Source: Candidatus Methanomethylicaceae archaeon
Lineage (GTDB): Archaea > Thermoproteota > Methanomethylicia > Methanomethylicales > Methanomethylicaceae
DNA: 33,418 nucleotides
Assembly (NCBI GenBank): GCA_025057955.1
Contig: JANXER010000001.1
Coordinates: 13,499-46,916 of the forward strand
Direction of reading: 5' to 3'
Positions within the stretch are counted from its first letter, which is position 1, and every line of letters begins with the position of its first letter. Position numbers and translations under genes: made by a program. This document shows, in pieces, positions 4,412-18,392 of the stretch. The notes beneath the pieces are model-generated. The model made no database searches and was not told the DNA's origin. It saw only the letters and a program-made list of their open reading frames with translations.

Positions 4412-4490
4412 AATCTATCCCATATAATCTTTGGGAAATCAATTATTTAAATGGTGGGGCTGGAGGGACTTGAACCCCCGACATGCGGGT

Positions 4491-4545
4491 TTCCCCGTAG
4501 CTCCAGAAGCACATCATCCCTTATGGTCATAGCCAAGATAAACCT
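4491..4545 (-). other. Canonical tRNA-Trp intron at position 37/38 (55 bases)
   Basis: Canonical archaeal intron position. The central helix is CTCC (tRNA 32-35) with GGGG at the intron end; the bulges are AG|A and AA|A, giving cuts after position 37 and before position 38. The intron contains TCTGGAGC, complementary to GCTCCAGA of the mature anticodon loop, preceded by an ATGATG motif. That pairing could be part of pre-tRNA folding or a guide-like element. Confidence 0.82.
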
Positions 4546-4554
4546 CTGGAGCCC

Positions 4555-4583
4555 TTAACGAGGCGAGGATTGTCCCTCACCTT
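4555..4583 (-). other. Non-canonical tRNA-Trp intron at position 28/29 (29 bases)
   Basis: This insert splits the 5' strand of the anticodon stem. It folds into a textbook bulge-helix-bulge: central 4-bp helix GACG (exon) with CGTT (intron end), a 3-base bulge GC|A on the 5' side, a 3-base bulge AA|G on the 3' side, and an inner hairpin AGGTGAGG/CCTCGCCT with a GACAAT loop. Cutting after the second base of each bulge joins GGC to GGG and restores the stem GCGGG/CCCGC. Additional introns at such positions are known mainly from Thermoproteales and related archaea. Confidence 0.85.
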
Positions 4584-4612
4584 GCCGTCATACCGTGCTA
4601 GACCACAGCCCC

Positions 4613-12743: not shown

Positions 12744-13715
12744 TTGATTTGTAGGTGGGTTTTTATAGCTGAAGGAAGATTAAAAGGAAGAGATTTAGTT
12801 TCAATAAAAGATCTAACAAGAGAGGATTTTGAGCAAATATTCCATATAGCAGAAAAAATGAAGAAGGAAGGCTATAGTAAAAATCTTAAGGATAAAATTA
12901 TTGGATTGTTATTCTATGAGCCTAGCACAAGAACAAGATTAAGCTTTGATGCTGCAGCTCGTTTGCTTGGTGCAGAGACCATATGGTTTGCTGGAGTAGA
13001 GGGAACTTCAGTAATGAAGGGAGAAACTCTAAAAGATACTATAGAGACTGTAGCAAATTACGTGGATTTAATAGTATTACGACATCCATGTGATGGTGCT
13101 GCAAGATGGGCTGCTGATGTTACAACAAATAGAATGAAGAGAGGACATAAGAAAGTTCCAGTAATAAACGCTGGAGATGGTAAGAATGAACATCCAACTC
13201 AAACCATATTAGATTTATTCACAATAAAGGAGAGAAAGGGAAGAATTGATGGACTTTGTATAGCGATTATAGGAGATTTAAAATATGGAAGGACGGTGCA
13301 TTCGTTGATATATGCTTTATCGCTATATGATTGTGATATTATACTAGTGGCACCAGAGGCACTACAAATACCCGAGCATATAGAGGAATTCATGAAGAGA
13401 AAAAATATGAGATATGAAAAGCGTTCTAAGCTTGAAGAGATAATTTCAATAGCTGATATATTATATGTCACAAGAATTCAAAAGGAGAGATTTCCAGATG
13501 AAAATGAATATAATAAAGTCAAGGGAATATTTAGGCTTAATAAAGAGCTTCTATCTAAAGCTAAATCAGATGCTTGTATAATGCATCCTCTTCCAAGGGT
13601 TGATGAAATTTCAACTGATGTTGATTCAGATTATAGAGCTTGTTATTTTGAGCAAGCAGCAAATGGTATACCAATAAGAGCAGCTATAATGTCGCTAATA
13701 TTGGGGATGATATAA
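12744..13715 (+). CDS. pyrB: Aspartate carbamoyltransferase catalytic chain
   Basis: Condenses carbamoyl phosphate with aspartate, first committed step of pyrimidine synthesis. Motifs: STRTRLSFDAAARLLGAETI (carbamoyl-phosphate loop STRTR), RHPCDGAARWAA, HPTQTILDLFTI (HPTQ), IGDLKYGRTVHSL and MHPLPRVDEI (HPLPR). All match the catalytic chain. The only normal in-frame start is TTG 12744, but a strong AGGTGGG ribosome site lies inside at 12753-12759, seven bases before an ATA at 12765. Homology also begins after that point (GRLKGRDLVSIKDLTRE), so the true start may be downstream. Its stop overlaps the pyrI start by one base (TAATG), giving the usual archaeal pyrBI pair. Confidence 0.95.
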   Translation: MICRWVFIAEGRLKGRDLVSIKDLTREDFEQIFHIAEKMKKEGYSKNLKDKIIGLLFYEPSTRTRLSFDAAARLLGAETIWFAGVEGTSVMKGETLKDTIETVANYVDLIVLRHPCDGAARWAADVTTNRMKRGHKKVPVINAGDGKNEHPTQTILDLFTIKERKGRIDGLCIAIIGDLKYGRTVHSLIYALSLYDCDIILVAPEALQIPEHIEEFMKRKNMRYEKRSKLEEIISIADILYVTRIQKERFPDENEYNKVKGIFRLNKELLSKAKSDACIMHPLPRVDEISTDVDSDYRACYFEQAANGIPIRAAIMSLILGMI

Positions 13716-14176
13716 TGAGTATGGAGAAGGGGCTTATAGTAAGATTAATAGAAAATGGAACAGTTATCGATCACATACCACCAGGCAAGGGTATTATAAT
13801 AGCAGAAATGTTGAATTTATTCAATCAAGATTCCGTAGTTATAATAGGTCAAAACCTTGAAAGTACAAAGTATGGTAGAAAGGATATAATAAAGGTTGAG
13901 AATAGATTTTTGAAAAGTGAAGAATATAATAAAATTGCATTAATTGCACCAAATGCAACAGTGAATATCATAGAGAACTATGAAATAAAGGAGAAGAAGA
14001 AAGTAACCATACCAAATGTTATAGAAGATGTAGCCCTTTGTATAAATGCAAATTGTATATCAAATAGAGAGCCCATTCCTTCAAAATTATATTTAATAAA
14101 TAGAAATCCATTGAAGCTAGTATGTCACTATTGTGGCTATGAATGTAATGAGAAAAATATAAGATTGAAGGCGTGA
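13715..14176 (+). CDS. pyrI: Aspartate carbamoyltransferase regulatory chain
   Basis: Zinc-binding regulatory subunit that binds nucleotide effectors and assembles with PyrB. 153 residues, typical. The N-terminal allosteric domain begins GLIVRLIENGTVIDHIPPGKG. The C-terminal zinc domain has CINANCISN and LVCHYCGYEC, the C-x4-C...C-x2-C ligand set. It overlaps pyrB by one base, so the two chains are coupled. Its presence indicates feedback control of the pathway by nucleotides at the enzyme level. Confidence 0.96.
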   Translation: MSMEKGLIVRLIENGTVIDHIPPGKGIIIAEMLNLFNQDSVVIIGQNLESTKYGRKDIIKVENRFLKSEEYNKIALIAPNATVNIIENYEIKEKKKVTIPNVIEDVALCINANCISNREPIPSKLYLINRNPLKLVCHYCGYECNEKNIRLKA

Positions 14177-14180
14177 AAGC

Positions 14181-15440
14181 TTGCTACTTATAAAGAATGG
14201 AAGAATTATTACACATAGAGAGATATTTCATGCAAACATTTTAGTAAATAAAGGTAGGATAACGCAGATAACCAAAGCTGAGCCAAAGGCTGATATAATA
14301 ATAAATGCTGATGGAAAGCTTGTAATACCTGGTGTTGTTGATCCTCATGTGCACTTTAGACAACCAGGATTGAAATCAGAGGATTGGAATAGTGGATCAA
14401 AATCAGCAATTGCAGGTGGAGTTACTACAGTGCTTGATATGCCAAATACCAATCCTCCAACAACAACTCTAAGTAGATTACTTGAGAAGAAAGCATTGAT
14501 AGAAAGAACTAATCCTCCTTTAGTGAACTATGGATTACACTTTGGAGCAAAAGAAGATAACTTGGATGAAATTGAAAAAGTAGTTGGAAAGACACCTCTT
14601 GCAGCTTCAGTCAAGATATTTATGGCCAAATCCAATGAATCATTATTAATTAAGGATGTTAATTTAATAGGTGAAATAATAAGAAGAGCAAGAATCGTCT
14701 GTGTTCATGCTGAGGATGAAGAAGTTATTGAAAAATTCTTCAATATGCCAAATCATAATTCTAAAAGGCCAAAGATTGCTGCTCTTTCAGCCATAAATAA
14801 GTTAATTCCCTTTGCAAATAGAGGAAGAGTCTATGTATTGCATGTAACATCATTAGAAGAGGCAGAATTGGCCTCTCCATTCTATAAGGAAGCTACACCA
14901 CATCATCTATTTCTAAATGAAGAGCTTATGAAAAGAATTGGAAATTATGCAAAAGTAAATCCTCCTTTAAGGGATGAAAAAGATAGAATTTCGCTTTGGA
15001 CTGCCTTAAAAAGAGGCTTAATAGATTGTATAGGCTCAGATCATGCACCACATTTAAAGGAGGATAAGGAAAAGGAAGATGCGCCCTCAGGTATGCCAGG
15101 TGTTGAAACTTCCCTTCCATTAATGTTAAATTCATCTCTGAATGGAATGATAAGCTTGGAAAAACTTGTGGAACTTATGTGTTATAATCCTGCTAGAATA
15201 TTTGGTTTAAAAGGAAAAGGAACTTTAGAAGTTGGAGCAGATGGAGATATAGTAATTGTGGATAAGGATTTGGAGAAAAAAGTAACAGCTGATGAACTTC
15301 ATTATAAGTGTAAATGGACACCTTATGAGGGAATGAGGCTTAGAGGATGGCCAATTATAACCATAATAGGAGGAGAGATTGCATATAAGGATGGAGAGTT
15401 CTTTCCTGTAAGAGGAAGGGAAGTAGTATATGAGGTTTGA
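14181..15440 (+). CDS. pyrC: Dihydroorotase
   Basis: Cyclises carbamoyl aspartate to dihydroorotate. 419 residues, amidohydrolase fold. Metal motifs: VDPHVHFRQPGLKSEDW (DxHxHFR), the KIFMAKS segment with the bridging lysine, CVHAEDEEV, YVLHVTSLEEAELA and GSDHAPHLKEDK (final SDHAPH). The product ends AYKDGEFFPVRGREVVYEV. The start is TTG 14181 with GGCGTGA just before it, four bases after pyrI. The tail overlaps the start of the pyrDK gene by 11 bases. Confidence 0.96.
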   Translation: MLLIKNGRIITHREIFHANILVNKGRITQITKAEPKADIIINADGKLVIPGVVDPHVHFRQPGLKSEDWNSGSKSAIAGGVTTVLDMPNTNPPTTTLSRLLEKKALIERTNPPLVNYGLHFGAKEDNLDEIEKVVGKTPLAASVKIFMAKSNESLLIKDVNLIGEIIRRARIVCVHAEDEEVIEKFFNMPNHNSKRPKIAALSAINKLIPFANRGRVYVLHVTSLEEAELASPFYKEATPHHLFLNEELMKRIGNYAKVNPPLRDEKDRISLWTALKRGLIDCIGSDHAPHLKEDKEKEDAPSGMPGVETSLPLMLNSSLNGMISLEKLVELMCYNPARIFGLKGKGTLEVGADGDIVIVDKDLEKKVTADELHYKCKWTPYEGMRLRGWPIITIIGGEIAYKDGEFFPVRGREVVYEV

Positions 15441-17046
15441 TATTCCAAAGGAGAGGCTTGTATTACCATCTGGAATAGTTGCCTCAACCCCAGATATAAT
15501 TAAAGCATTGGAAGATACAGAAGGCCTTGGTGTTATAACAACAAAGAGCATTGGATTATTTGAAAGAGATGGATATAAAGAGCCAATAATTGCTGGAGTT
15601 CTTGGATCTTTGATAAATGCTGTTGGATTACCAAATCCTGGTATTAAGGAATTTATAAATGAAATTAAGGAAATTTATCCAATAAAGAAGATATTAATGA
15701 CGTCTATTTTTGGATCTTCGAAAGAGGAATTTCAAGAATTAACATTGAAATTGGAAAAGTATACAGATTGGATAGAGCTGAATTTATCATGTCCACATGT
15801 GAAAAATTATGGAGCTGCCATAGGCACATCTTCTTCATTAGTTAGAGAAATTGTTTCTTCAGTACGTCAATGCACCGATCTTCCAATATTTGTTAAACTT
15901 GCACCCTCTCAAGGATTAATTGGAAGAATTGCAAAAATTGCCATTAATGCTGGAGCAAATGGAATAACTGCAGTTAATAGCTTAGGACCTTTAATATTTT
16001 TAGATCCCATCACAAATAAGCCCATATTATCCAATATCTATGGTGGTTTATCTGGTCCAGCAATAAAAGAAATTGCACTAATGTGTATAAAAGAAATAAG
16101 AGAAAATATAAATGCACCAATAATAGGCATGGGAGGAATAACTAGCCCTTGTGATCTTAAAGAGTTTAAAAAAGCTGGAGCAGATCTCTTTGGAATAGGA
16201 ACAGCATTATTGGGAATGAGTACAAACATGATTAAAAAGTTCATTAAAGATTTATGGATGGGAATGAATGGAGAAAGGCCGAAGATCAGCCTTGAATATA
16301 AGAAGTTTACAGTAAGAGAGGCTTGGGGATCTGAAATGAGGGTGCTAATTCTGGATGGAAGTATAGAAGCACTTCCAGGTCAATTTGTATTCATATGGGT
16401 GCCAGGATTAGGGGAGAAGCCCTTCTCTTTAGCATTCAATAATCCAATAACTCTACTTGTGAAAAAAATAGGCCCTGTTTCATCAAAAATAGCAGAAATG
16501 AAAGAAGGAGATGTAATATTATTGAGAGGCCCTTATGGGAATTTTTATATTCCAAATGAAGGAGCAGGACTTGTTGGTGGAGGATCAGGAGTAGCTCCAA
16601 TATACTTTGTAGCAAAAATGTTTAGAAATAGAATCAATATAGCATACATTGGTGGAAAGAGTAGCTCAGATCTACCTCTATATGATTATTTGAAGGAAGT
16701 GGTTGAGGTTAAAGCTTCTACTGAGGATGGAAGCTTGGGATTTAAAGGTTTAGTTACAGATATAATAGATGCAAGAAGATCTAGAGAGTATTTCAATTGT
16801 GGTCCTGAGGCAATGCTTGTAAAAGCAGCTGAGCTTGAGTCCAAATTCGTAGGAGAGAATAGAGTATTTTGTGCTATTGAGAGATATACAAAATGTGGAG
16901 TAGGAATATGTGGTAGCTGTTCCATAGATGGTATGAGGATTTGTGTGGATGGACCAATATTTCCATACTCTATACTTAAGCATGGAAAAGATTTTGGTAA
17001 GTTTAAAAGAGCTCCAAGTGGGAGAAGGATGAGGATTGAAGGATGA
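15430..17046 (+). CDS. pyrD: Fused dihydroorotate dehydrogenase catalytic (PyrD) and electron-transfer (PyrK) subunits
   Basis: Oxidises dihydroorotate to orotate and passes electrons to NAD through FAD and an iron-sulfur cluster. Class 1B enzymes normally use two separate chains; here both lie in one 538-residue frame. Residues 1 to about 275 are PyrD: ELNLSCPHVKNYG with the catalytic Cys of the NLSCP motif, PIFVKLAPS, ITAVNSLGP, IYGGLSGPAIK, IIGMGGITSP and DLFGIGTALL. Residues about 285-538 are PyrK: the flavin segment EKPFSLAFNNP, the nucleotide loop GGGSGVAPIYFVAK, and the 2Fe-2S motif with cysteines in KCGVGICGSC and RICVDGPIF. The junction has no stop or shift. It overlaps pyrC by 11 bases and pyrE by 11. 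Confidence 0.94.
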   Translation: MRFDIPKERLVLPSGIVASTPDIIKALEDTEGLGVITTKSIGLFERDGYKEPIIAGVLGSLINAVGLPNPGIKEFINEIKEIYPIKKILMTSIFGSSKEEFQELTLKLEKYTDWIELNLSCPHVKNYGAAIGTSSSLVREIVSSVRQCTDLPIFVKLAPSQGLIGRIAKIAINAGANGITAVNSLGPLIFLDPITNKPILSNIYGGLSGPAIKEIALMCIKEIRENINAPIIGMGGITSPCDLKEFKKAGADLFGIGTALLGMSTNMIKKFIKDLWMGMNGERPKISLEYKKFTVREAWGSEMRVLILDGSIEALPGQFVFIWVPGLGEKPFSLAFNNPITLLVKKIGPVSSKIAEMKEGDVILLRGPYGNFYIPNEGAGLVGGGSGVAPIYFVAKMFRNRINIAYIGGKSSSDLPLYDYLKEVVEVKASTEDGSLGFKGLVTDIIDARRSREYFNCGPEAMLVKAAELESKFVGENRVFCAIERYTKCGVGICGSCSIDGMRICVDGPIFPYSILKHGKDFGKFKRAPSGRRMRIEG

Positions 17047-17686
17047 ATTCTCAAAATTCTTGCTAGAAATAGGAGCAATTAAATTTGGAGATTTCAAATT
17101 GAAGAGTGGAAGAAATTCTCCTTATTTCATAGATATTGGAACAATTAGAGATGGAAAAAATCTTGCTAAGTTGGGAGAATTTTATGCTAAGGCCATAATG
17201 GAATTGAATATAGAATTTGATGTTATATTTGGACCCTCCTATAAGGGAATACCTATAGCCATTTCCACAGCTATAGCATTAGATAAACTCTTTGGAATTT
17301 CAAAGAGAGTAGCCTTCAATAGAAAGGAGGCAAAGGACTATGGTGAAGGAGGCATAATTATAGGAGAAATAAAAAGTGGAGATAGAGTGGTAATTTTAGA
17401 TGATGTAATGACAACAGGAAGAACTAAGGAGGAGATTATTCATTTACTCTACTCCATGGAAAATGTGAAAGTAGCATTCATATTAATAGCTGTGGATAGA
17501 ATGGAAAGAGGGGAGGGAGAATTAATGGCTACTAAGGAATTTGAAGTTAAATATGGAATACCAGTGAAGTCCATAGTTAATATAAAAGAAGTAGCAGAAT
17601 TTGCATTGAGAAATAAATTAATTAAAGAAATAGAAATGAAGAAAATTCTCAATTATTTAGAGAAATATGGAGGGAGGAGTCTTTAG
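17036..17686 (+). CDS. pyrE: Orotate phosphoribosyltransferase
   Basis: Joins orotate to PRPP to give OMP. 216 residues. Motifs: GDFKLKSGRNSPYFIDIGTI near the start (orotate/PRPP contacts), FGPSYKGIPIAISTA, AFNRKEAKDYGEGG (the flexible KxxKxYG-type loop) and the PRPP-binding motif VVILDDVMTTGRTKEE. It starts at TTG 17036 inside the end of pyrDK, preceded by GATGAGGA. The start of pyrF lies within its last 20 bases, so the whole operon is compact and translationally coupled. Confidence 0.96.
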   Translation: MKDEFSKFLLEIGAIKFGDFKLKSGRNSPYFIDIGTIRDGKNLAKLGEFYAKAIMELNIEFDVIFGPSYKGIPIAISTAIALDKLFGISKRVAFNRKEAKDYGEGGIIIGEIKSGDRVVILDDVMTTGRTKEEIIHLLYSMENVKVAFILIAVDRMERGEGELMATKEFEVKYGIPVKSIVNIKEVAEFALRNKLIKEIEMKKILNYLEKYGGRSL

Positions 17687-18392
17687 AAAAATAAAGAGGG
17701 ATAGAAGCATAATAATTGCATGTGATTTTGATAGCCTAGAGAAATTGAAGGAAATTATTTCCAACTCCTATGATATGGATATGGTAGGAGGATATAAAAT
17801 AGGATTTGGATTAGCATTGAAATATGGACTTCCAAATGTAGCTTCCATAATAAGGAACTTAACAGAAAAACCGATAATATATGATCATCAAAAGGGTGGA
17901 ACAGATGTTTTACATACTGCAAAAATATTTTCAAAAATAATGAGAGAATCAATGATAGATTATGCTATAATCTTTCCATTAAGTGGACCATCAGTTGAAA
18001 GAGCTTGGATAGAGGAACTGAGATCAAATAATATTACACCAATTGTAGGAGGTATAATGACAGTTCAAGATTTCCTGGCTAGTGCTGGAGGATTTATAAA
18101 AAGTGAGGGTCCATTAGAAATTTATAGGATTGCAGTAGAATTGAAAGTTAGGGATTTTGTACTCCCTGGAAATAATTTAGAAATTCTAAAGCATTATAAG
18201 AAAGTAATAGATTCAATGATAGAAGATCCAATATATTATCTTCCTGGATTAGGAGCTCAAGGAGGAGATTTAAAGCTCTGTTCAAAAATAATGGAAAAAA
18301 ATTGGCATGCAATCATAGGCAGAAGTATATATGATTCAAGAAATATTAGAGAGGCTATAATTGAGCATTATAAGATGATAATTAATCCGTAA
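17667..18392 (+). CDS. pyrF: Orotidine 5'-phosphate decarboxylase
   Basis: Decarboxylates OMP to UMP, completing the pathway. 241 residues, TIM-barrel. Visible motifs: [13 protein letters not shown] at the first strand, [20 protein letters not shown] with the catalytic Asp-x-x-Lys-x4-Asp array, [32 protein letters not shown] (phosphate-binding glycines) and [11 protein letters not shown]. The DHQKGGTD active-site form is the one I associate with some archaeal and other type-2-like enzymes. ATG 17667 lies inside pyrE, upstream of a strong GGAGGGAGGAG sequence, so a start slightly downstream cannot be excluded. The 3' end overlaps the convergent UPF0147 gene by 11 bases. Confidence 0.95.

Follow-up and report, generated by a model that had tools for sequence, protein, structure and literature searches.

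The window, by which we mean the whole stretch of 33,418 nucleotides analysed from contig JANXER010000001.1 of a Candidatus Methanomethylicaceae archaeon, carries a tRNA-Trp(CCA) gene on the minus strand (4612-4452) with an encoded 3' CCA. Two inserts divide the gene into three exons (Table 1). At standard settings, ARAGORN called two other tRNAs in the raw window and missed this one. The Rfam tRNA model found it at 35.1 bits (E 6e-4) with 97 anticodon-arm bases left unaligned, and the unspliced precursor is hence still weakly recognisable as a tRNA. A 5S rRNA gene (4142-4021, Rfam) lies on the same strand ~310 bases downstream. Further along the window, a run of open reading frames at 12744-18392 resembles a pyrimidine synthesis cluster (pyrB, pyrI, pyrC, pyrD/pyrK-like, pyrE and pyrF, named from translations only).

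Table 1. Features of the tRNA-Trp(CCA) gene, in the order of transcription. Arrows mark predicted cuts and hyphens mark joined exon ends.
Feature	Position	Strand	Basis and remarks
Exon 1, tRNA positions 1-28: acceptor 5' strand, D arm, first two bases of anticodon stem	4584..4612	-	Sequence; Rfam alignment; excision test
Core helix of intron 1, 5' strand G23 A24 C25 G26 (also D-stem 3' strand)	4586..4589	-	Pairs with 4557-4560; GACG/CGUU covaries with GGCG/CGCU
Intron 1, 29 nt, in anticodon stem between positions 28 and 29	4555..4583	-	Excision test; homolog alignment; covariation
Intron-internal helix of intron 1, 5' strand AGGTGAGGG	4574..4582	-	9 bp with 4561-4569; compensatory change in 7/7 aligned pairs
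Intron-internal helix of intron 1, 3' strand TCCTCGCCT	4561..4569	-	Compensatory changes
Core helix of intron 1, 3' strand CGUU, then bulge AA↓G	4557..4560	-	Covariation
Exon 2, tRNA positions 29-37, anticodon CCA at 4547-4549	4546..4554	-	Sequence; excision test
Intron 2, 55 nt, canonical position 37/38	4491..4545	-	Excision test; homologs
UGACC element of intron 2, D'-box-like half of k-turn-like motif	4525..4529	-	Conserved in homologs; function putative
GGGAUGA element of intron 2, C/C'-box-like	4514..4520	-	Conserved in homologs; function putative
CUUCUGGAGC of intron 2, antisense to exon 2 around C34	4500..4509	-	10 bp with pre-tRNA, 8-9 bp with mature tRNA; guide role putative
GGGG of intron 2, BHB core helix 3' strand	4493..4496	-	Pairs with C32-C35 (4548-4551); 4/4 pairs in 21/30 precursors, 3/4 in the other 9
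Exon 3, tRNA positions 38-73	4455..4490	-	Sequence; Rfam alignment
3' CCA, encoded	4452..4454	-	Sequence
Predicted spliced tRNA-Trp around the junctions, ...GACGGC-GGGCTCCAG-ACCCGC...			

With both introns cut out, a 77-mer remains that has all four stems, U33 and the anticodon CCA, and that ARAGORN identifies as tRNA-Trp(cca). Removal of intron 1 alone gave a tRNA-Trp with a 55-nt intron, while removal of intron 2 alone led ARAGORN to miscall an Arg tRNA. We also took out all 26,220 pairs of pieces totalling 84 nt, requiring a full cloverleaf, U33 and CCA. In each of the four best pairs with U33 and CCA, intron 1 was exactly 4583-4555. The edges of intron 2 can slide over four positions on pairing alone, and its site was set at 37/38 because the bulge-helix-bulge (BHB) rule and the homologs select it among these pairing-equivalent positions. 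The cloverleaf was thus restored only by exact excision, as expected of archaeal BHB introns. The first-pass annotation had described a tRNA-Trp gene with two introns, the first at 28/29, that folds only when inserts of 29 and 55 bases are both removed. Its coordinates were right and its reading is borne out by these excisions; moreover, the two-intron layout is common to 30 distinct precursors from relatives.

In a BHB motif, a 4-bp helix lies between two bulges of 3 nt, and each bulge is cut between its second and third base. Intron 1 agrees with this pattern in sequence and structure: its 3-4-3 core has the bulges GC↓A and AA↓G on either side of four pairs, one of which is G-U. It does not have the strict hBHBh' form, in which helices flank the core on both sides. 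The 9-bp helix on the intron side is present and covaries, but the outer helix between the exons cannot form and was missing in all homologs inspected. Because the exon-side helix is missing, the motif is of the relaxed HBh' type. The earlier description of a 'perfect bulge-helix-bulge' therefore stands for the core, its four base pairs and its bulges, but not for the motif as a whole. Furthermore, the D stem and the splice motif are mutually exclusive, as the core helix engages the D-stem 3' strand. The lack of an exon-side helix and the competition with the D stem both count against our interpretation. Relaxed motifs are counted among the archaeal splice motifs (PMC4090602).

The exact site of the cut is assigned from sequence and structure, and for other tRNAs the experimental sites differed from the predicted ones (PMC4307357). 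Intron 1, whose excision at 28/29 would leave CGGCGGGCTCC at the junction of the spliced product, might be cut at a neighbouring site instead, 27/28 or 29/30. We consider this highly unlikely. Moving the edge of intron 1 by one base in the excision test loses two stem pairs (score 17.5 vs 19.5) and breaks the 3-4-3 bulge pattern, and the exon and intron edges contain no repeat that could blur the junction.

The structure of intron 1 is conserved across homologs. Within the set of 30 precursors, the inner helix changed on both sides at every one of its aligned pairs, amounting to 63 cells with two-sided changes; shuffles gave 17.9 ± 3.2 such cells, and controls with slid partners 3-15. In the same alignment, G23-G26 of the exon and CGUU of the intron, which form the core helix, were 99% paired. 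This helix covaries with the exon. Among 56 distinct introns at 28/29, A24 was opposite U in 42 of 45 cases and G24 opposite C in 11 of 11, and the change of the exon from GACG to GGCG was accompanied by a change of the intron from CGUU or CGUC to CGCU or CGCA. Pair 27-43, whose bases are parted by both introns, is G-C, A-U or G-U across homologs. The conserved layout, the compensatory changes and the behaviour of pair 27-43 together make an origin of this arrangement by chance untenable.

Alternatively, intron 2 might be the only real intron, with the 29-base insert retained as an extended arm of the tRNA. In favour of this, the insert alone forms a stable hairpin, and even unspliced the gene reaches 35 bits with the tRNA model. 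Retention would, however, split the anticodon stem; the core helix and bulges fit the pattern of the splicing endonuclease and covary with the exon, and pair 27-43 covaries as if joined to 29-41. In addition, the insert is missing altogether in some lineages (L198). A retained arm is therefore very improbable.

No second tRNA-Trp gene was found by DNA search and the Rfam tRNA model over the genome, which is 93.8% complete in 49 contigs, and the other readable tRNA matches all have anticodons other than Trp. The first-pass annotation had named a second intact tRNA-Trp gene as an observation that would speak against its reading; we looked for such a gene in vain. That the gene in the window is a pseudogene or decaying copy, with the working tRNA-Trp in the missing 6% of the genome, might draw on this incompleteness and on its being missed by ARAGORN, but is hardly credible for a gene whose mature stems are all intact after splicing, whose layout is conserved with compensatory change over genera, families and classes, and which is matched at E below 1e-30 in most genomes of the same family. 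We rejected both this reading and the retained arm on the basis of covariation, compensatory change and the excision test.

About a dozen tRNA genes of this genome have introns. For instance, tRNA-Lys(CUU) and tRNA-Val(CAC) (L119 and L126, on contigs C45 and C49) carry anticodon-stem inserts of 17 nt at 29/30 or 30/31 and of 16 nt at 27/28 or 28/29, respectively, which must be removed for the tRNAs to fold. Hence, quite apart from tRNA-Trp, this genome requires a splicing enzyme that cuts non-canonical sites.

A splicing endonuclease of two subunits or of broad specificity had been predicted from the tRNA-Trp gene, with a search of the genome for EndA subunits as the check. In line with expectation, this search returned genes for both an alpha and a beta subunit. 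The genome encodes exactly two PF01974 proteins, both of which also have the N-terminal domain. The alpha subunit (contig 14, 183 aa) is closest to the crenarchaeal EndA alpha, matching EndA of Aeropyrum pernix over its whole length (163 bits). Alignment shows that it keeps the catalytic triad Y120, H128 and K159, and its loop NINKPKDPSEIN includes K38-P39-K40 of the crenarchaeal type. The beta-like paralogue (contig 25, 177 aa) has Pro-Ala in place of the catalytic His. The sequence features expected of an (alpha-beta)2 enzyme are thus present: separate catalytic and structural genes, Tyr/His/Lys in alpha with the His lost in beta, and a Lys-Pro/Val-Lys/Arg loop. Among the relatives, two PF01974-type genes occur in most of 60 genomes, and nearly all alpha subunits examined have the loop motif KP[KR]. 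The Lys-Pro-Arg/Lys loop lets heteromeric crenarchaeal enzymes cut relaxed motifs (PMC12397907). The protein sequences support the view that this genome encodes the predicted two-subunit, broad-specificity endonuclease. An RtcB ligase is encoded as well.

Intron 2 has the anticodon stem as its exon-side helix, a core formed by C32-C35 and GGGG, and the bulges AG↓A and AA↓A. No clear intron-side helix was found in the window; its motif is not of the strict hBHBh' form but relaxed.

In archaea, the tRNA-Trp intron commonly houses a box C/D guide whose targets are Cm34 and position 39 (PMC4090602, PMC7994747). In intron 2, three elements are conserved. The element CUUCUGGAGC is kept among homologs and is antisense to G31-G37 plus the next bases. 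The C34 antisense element expected of a box C/D guide intron is thus present, and TCTGGAGC or a close variant occurs in nearly all homologs, although the match in the window is not significant in a single-sequence test (P 0.085). UGACC and GGGAUGA are also conserved in homologs, but GG stands where box C has RU. A D box, located such that the fifth upstream base pairs with C34, was not found after the C34 element of the window, which has TACGGGGA at that place; several homologs have CTGG or CTAG there. Nor does intron 2 of the window have a CUGA box at this place or a guide for position 39.

In Nezhaarchaeota-type loci (L021-L023, L025, L027 and L029), intron 2 contains ACGGGTCTG or a variant of it. 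This sequence is antisense to positions 35-43 of the mature tRNA, reaching over the exon junction, and is accompanied by a D-box-like element that would direct it to C39. The window's family lacks such a guide. Several Nezhaarchaeota-type homologs contain ACGGGUCUG, antisense to mature positions 35-43 and spanning the splice junction; in L022 it is followed by a CUGA box, and the fifth upstream base pairs with C39. We think it rather likely, judging from these sequences, that intron 2 is a decayed descendant of the box C/D guide that archaeal tRNA-Trp introns harbour. Because the window has no D box and its antisense match is not significant by itself, we propose a guide role as probable ancestry only.

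We are highly confident that the locus is the single tRNA-Trp(CCA) gene of this Methanomethylicia archaeon with two protein-spliced introns. The hairpin of intron 1 would be joined via the 4-bp core helix to G23-G26, the 3' strand of the D stem, leaving the bulges described above. The heteromeric alpha-beta endonuclease, with its crenarchaeal-type loop, would cut these bulges at C28↓A and A↓G29, and those of intron 2 at G37↓A and A↓A38, after which RtcB would join the exons. Each splice motif can form alone, and removal of intron 1 completes the anticodon stem. Intron 2 would have kept the C34 antisense element of an ancestral guide, while a recognisable D box and the C39 guide were presumably lost. 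A difficulty is that the 10-bp antisense helix between exon and intron 2 would hide the 5' splice site unless it is opened.

Relatives with homologous DNA belong to Methanomethylicus, Methanosuratincola and Methanomethylicota in the same family, and to Nezhaarchaeota in the same class. An exact pattern of the 28/29 layout, searched over 84,980 species, returned 21 records, all labelled as Methanomethylicota or its genera, Nezhaarchaeota, 'Thermoprotei archaeon', Bathyarchaeota and one Asgard MAG. The last of these, an Asgard-labelled contig of Ca. Baldrarchaeum yapensis (L075), has the same two-intron tRNA-Trp layout, with MAG contamination as a possible source. With a covariance model built on the 5' half, this layout was also detected in a crenarchaeal-like family of complete genomes (E about 1e-10). 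Other families have no insert at 28/29. Two loci from same-class families (L028 in f4 and L031 in f8) have a tRNA-Trp without this insert and with a different D arm (TAGCTCAG...AGAGC); they carry an acceptor-stem insert near 3/4, as if the 5' part had been exchanged with that of another tRNA.

The intron at 28/29 is clearly inherited within the window's own family. Its recurrence in Nezhaarchaeota, Bathyarchaeota, the crenarchaeal-like family and the Asgard MAG argues against a recent insertion in the Methanomethylicia lineage. Since the motif forces the letters at the junctions and the inner helix drifts fast, sequence alone does not separate descent from repeated gain at a favoured site. We tentatively suggest, with somewhat less than even confidence, that the intron was already there before Methanomethylicia, Nezhaarchaeota, Bathyarchaeota and part of the crenarchaea separated, and was kept by descent, and that the tRNA-Trp of some lineages later reached four introns. 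The deep conservation of the 28/29 intron does not fit the general statement that non-canonical tRNA introns are recent (PMC4033280).

In three genomes of the same phylum (G247, G049 and G083), the tRNA-Trp gene (L200, L201 and L212; 226, 238 and 240 nt long, respectively) is interrupted by four inserts, located in the D loop, at 28/29, at 37/38 and in the variable loop. Removal of all four yields a cloverleaf tRNA-Trp, and the edges of the inserts are backed by relatives that miss one or another of them (L207, L071). The published maximum is three introns per tRNA (PMC4033280, PMC8450103). These four-insert genes would exceed it and are the most surprising side result of our analysis.

In comparison with known systems, the gene resembles crenarchaeal (Thermoproteota) tRNAs with non-canonical BHB introns, which often accompany a canonical intron. 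The similarities include short introns with BHB-type sites, a position in the anticodon stem, a second intron at 37/38, and a heteromeric endonuclease with a specific loop. Yet, position 28/29 is not among the non-canonical positions named in a review (20/21, 22/23, 25/26, 29/30, 30/31, 45/46, 53/54, 56/57 and 59/60, in a list ending in 'etc.'; PMC4090602), and the intron is common to whole classes rather than local to a lineage. The tRNA-Trp of Aeropyrum pernix likewise has a non-canonical anticodon-stem intron with a BHB motif and an (alpha-beta)2 enzyme. Its cDNA-verified intron lies 31 bases from the 5' end (PMC4307357), against 29 here. Compared to the A. pernix enzyme (PDB 3p1z), the alpha subunit conserves the triad and the K-P-K/R loop. 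The beta subunit, in contrast, still has an N-terminal domain, and its closest sequence match is an archaeal homotetrameric-type chain (1a79).

Intron 2 shares its canonical position, similar length, C34 antisense element and C/D-like motifs with the box C/D guide introns of Haloferax volcanii and Pyrococcus sR50 (PMC4090602, PMC7994747). It differs from them in lacking a CUGA box after the C34 element and in having lost the guide for position 39. Homologs in Nezhaarchaeota also have the 35-43 antisense element.

For annotators, the gene is a warning: in these genomes, the sole tRNA-Trp escapes software that does not handle archaeal introns. The two-intron tRNA-Trp is a known kind of archaeal tRNA splicing; what is less usual is the position at 28/29 and its deep conservation. 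As this gene shows, a non-canonical intron inside a tRNA stem can keep precisely the same position throughout whole classes of archaea. Intron position can therefore serve as an evolutionary character and for testing co-evolution with the splicing enzyme.
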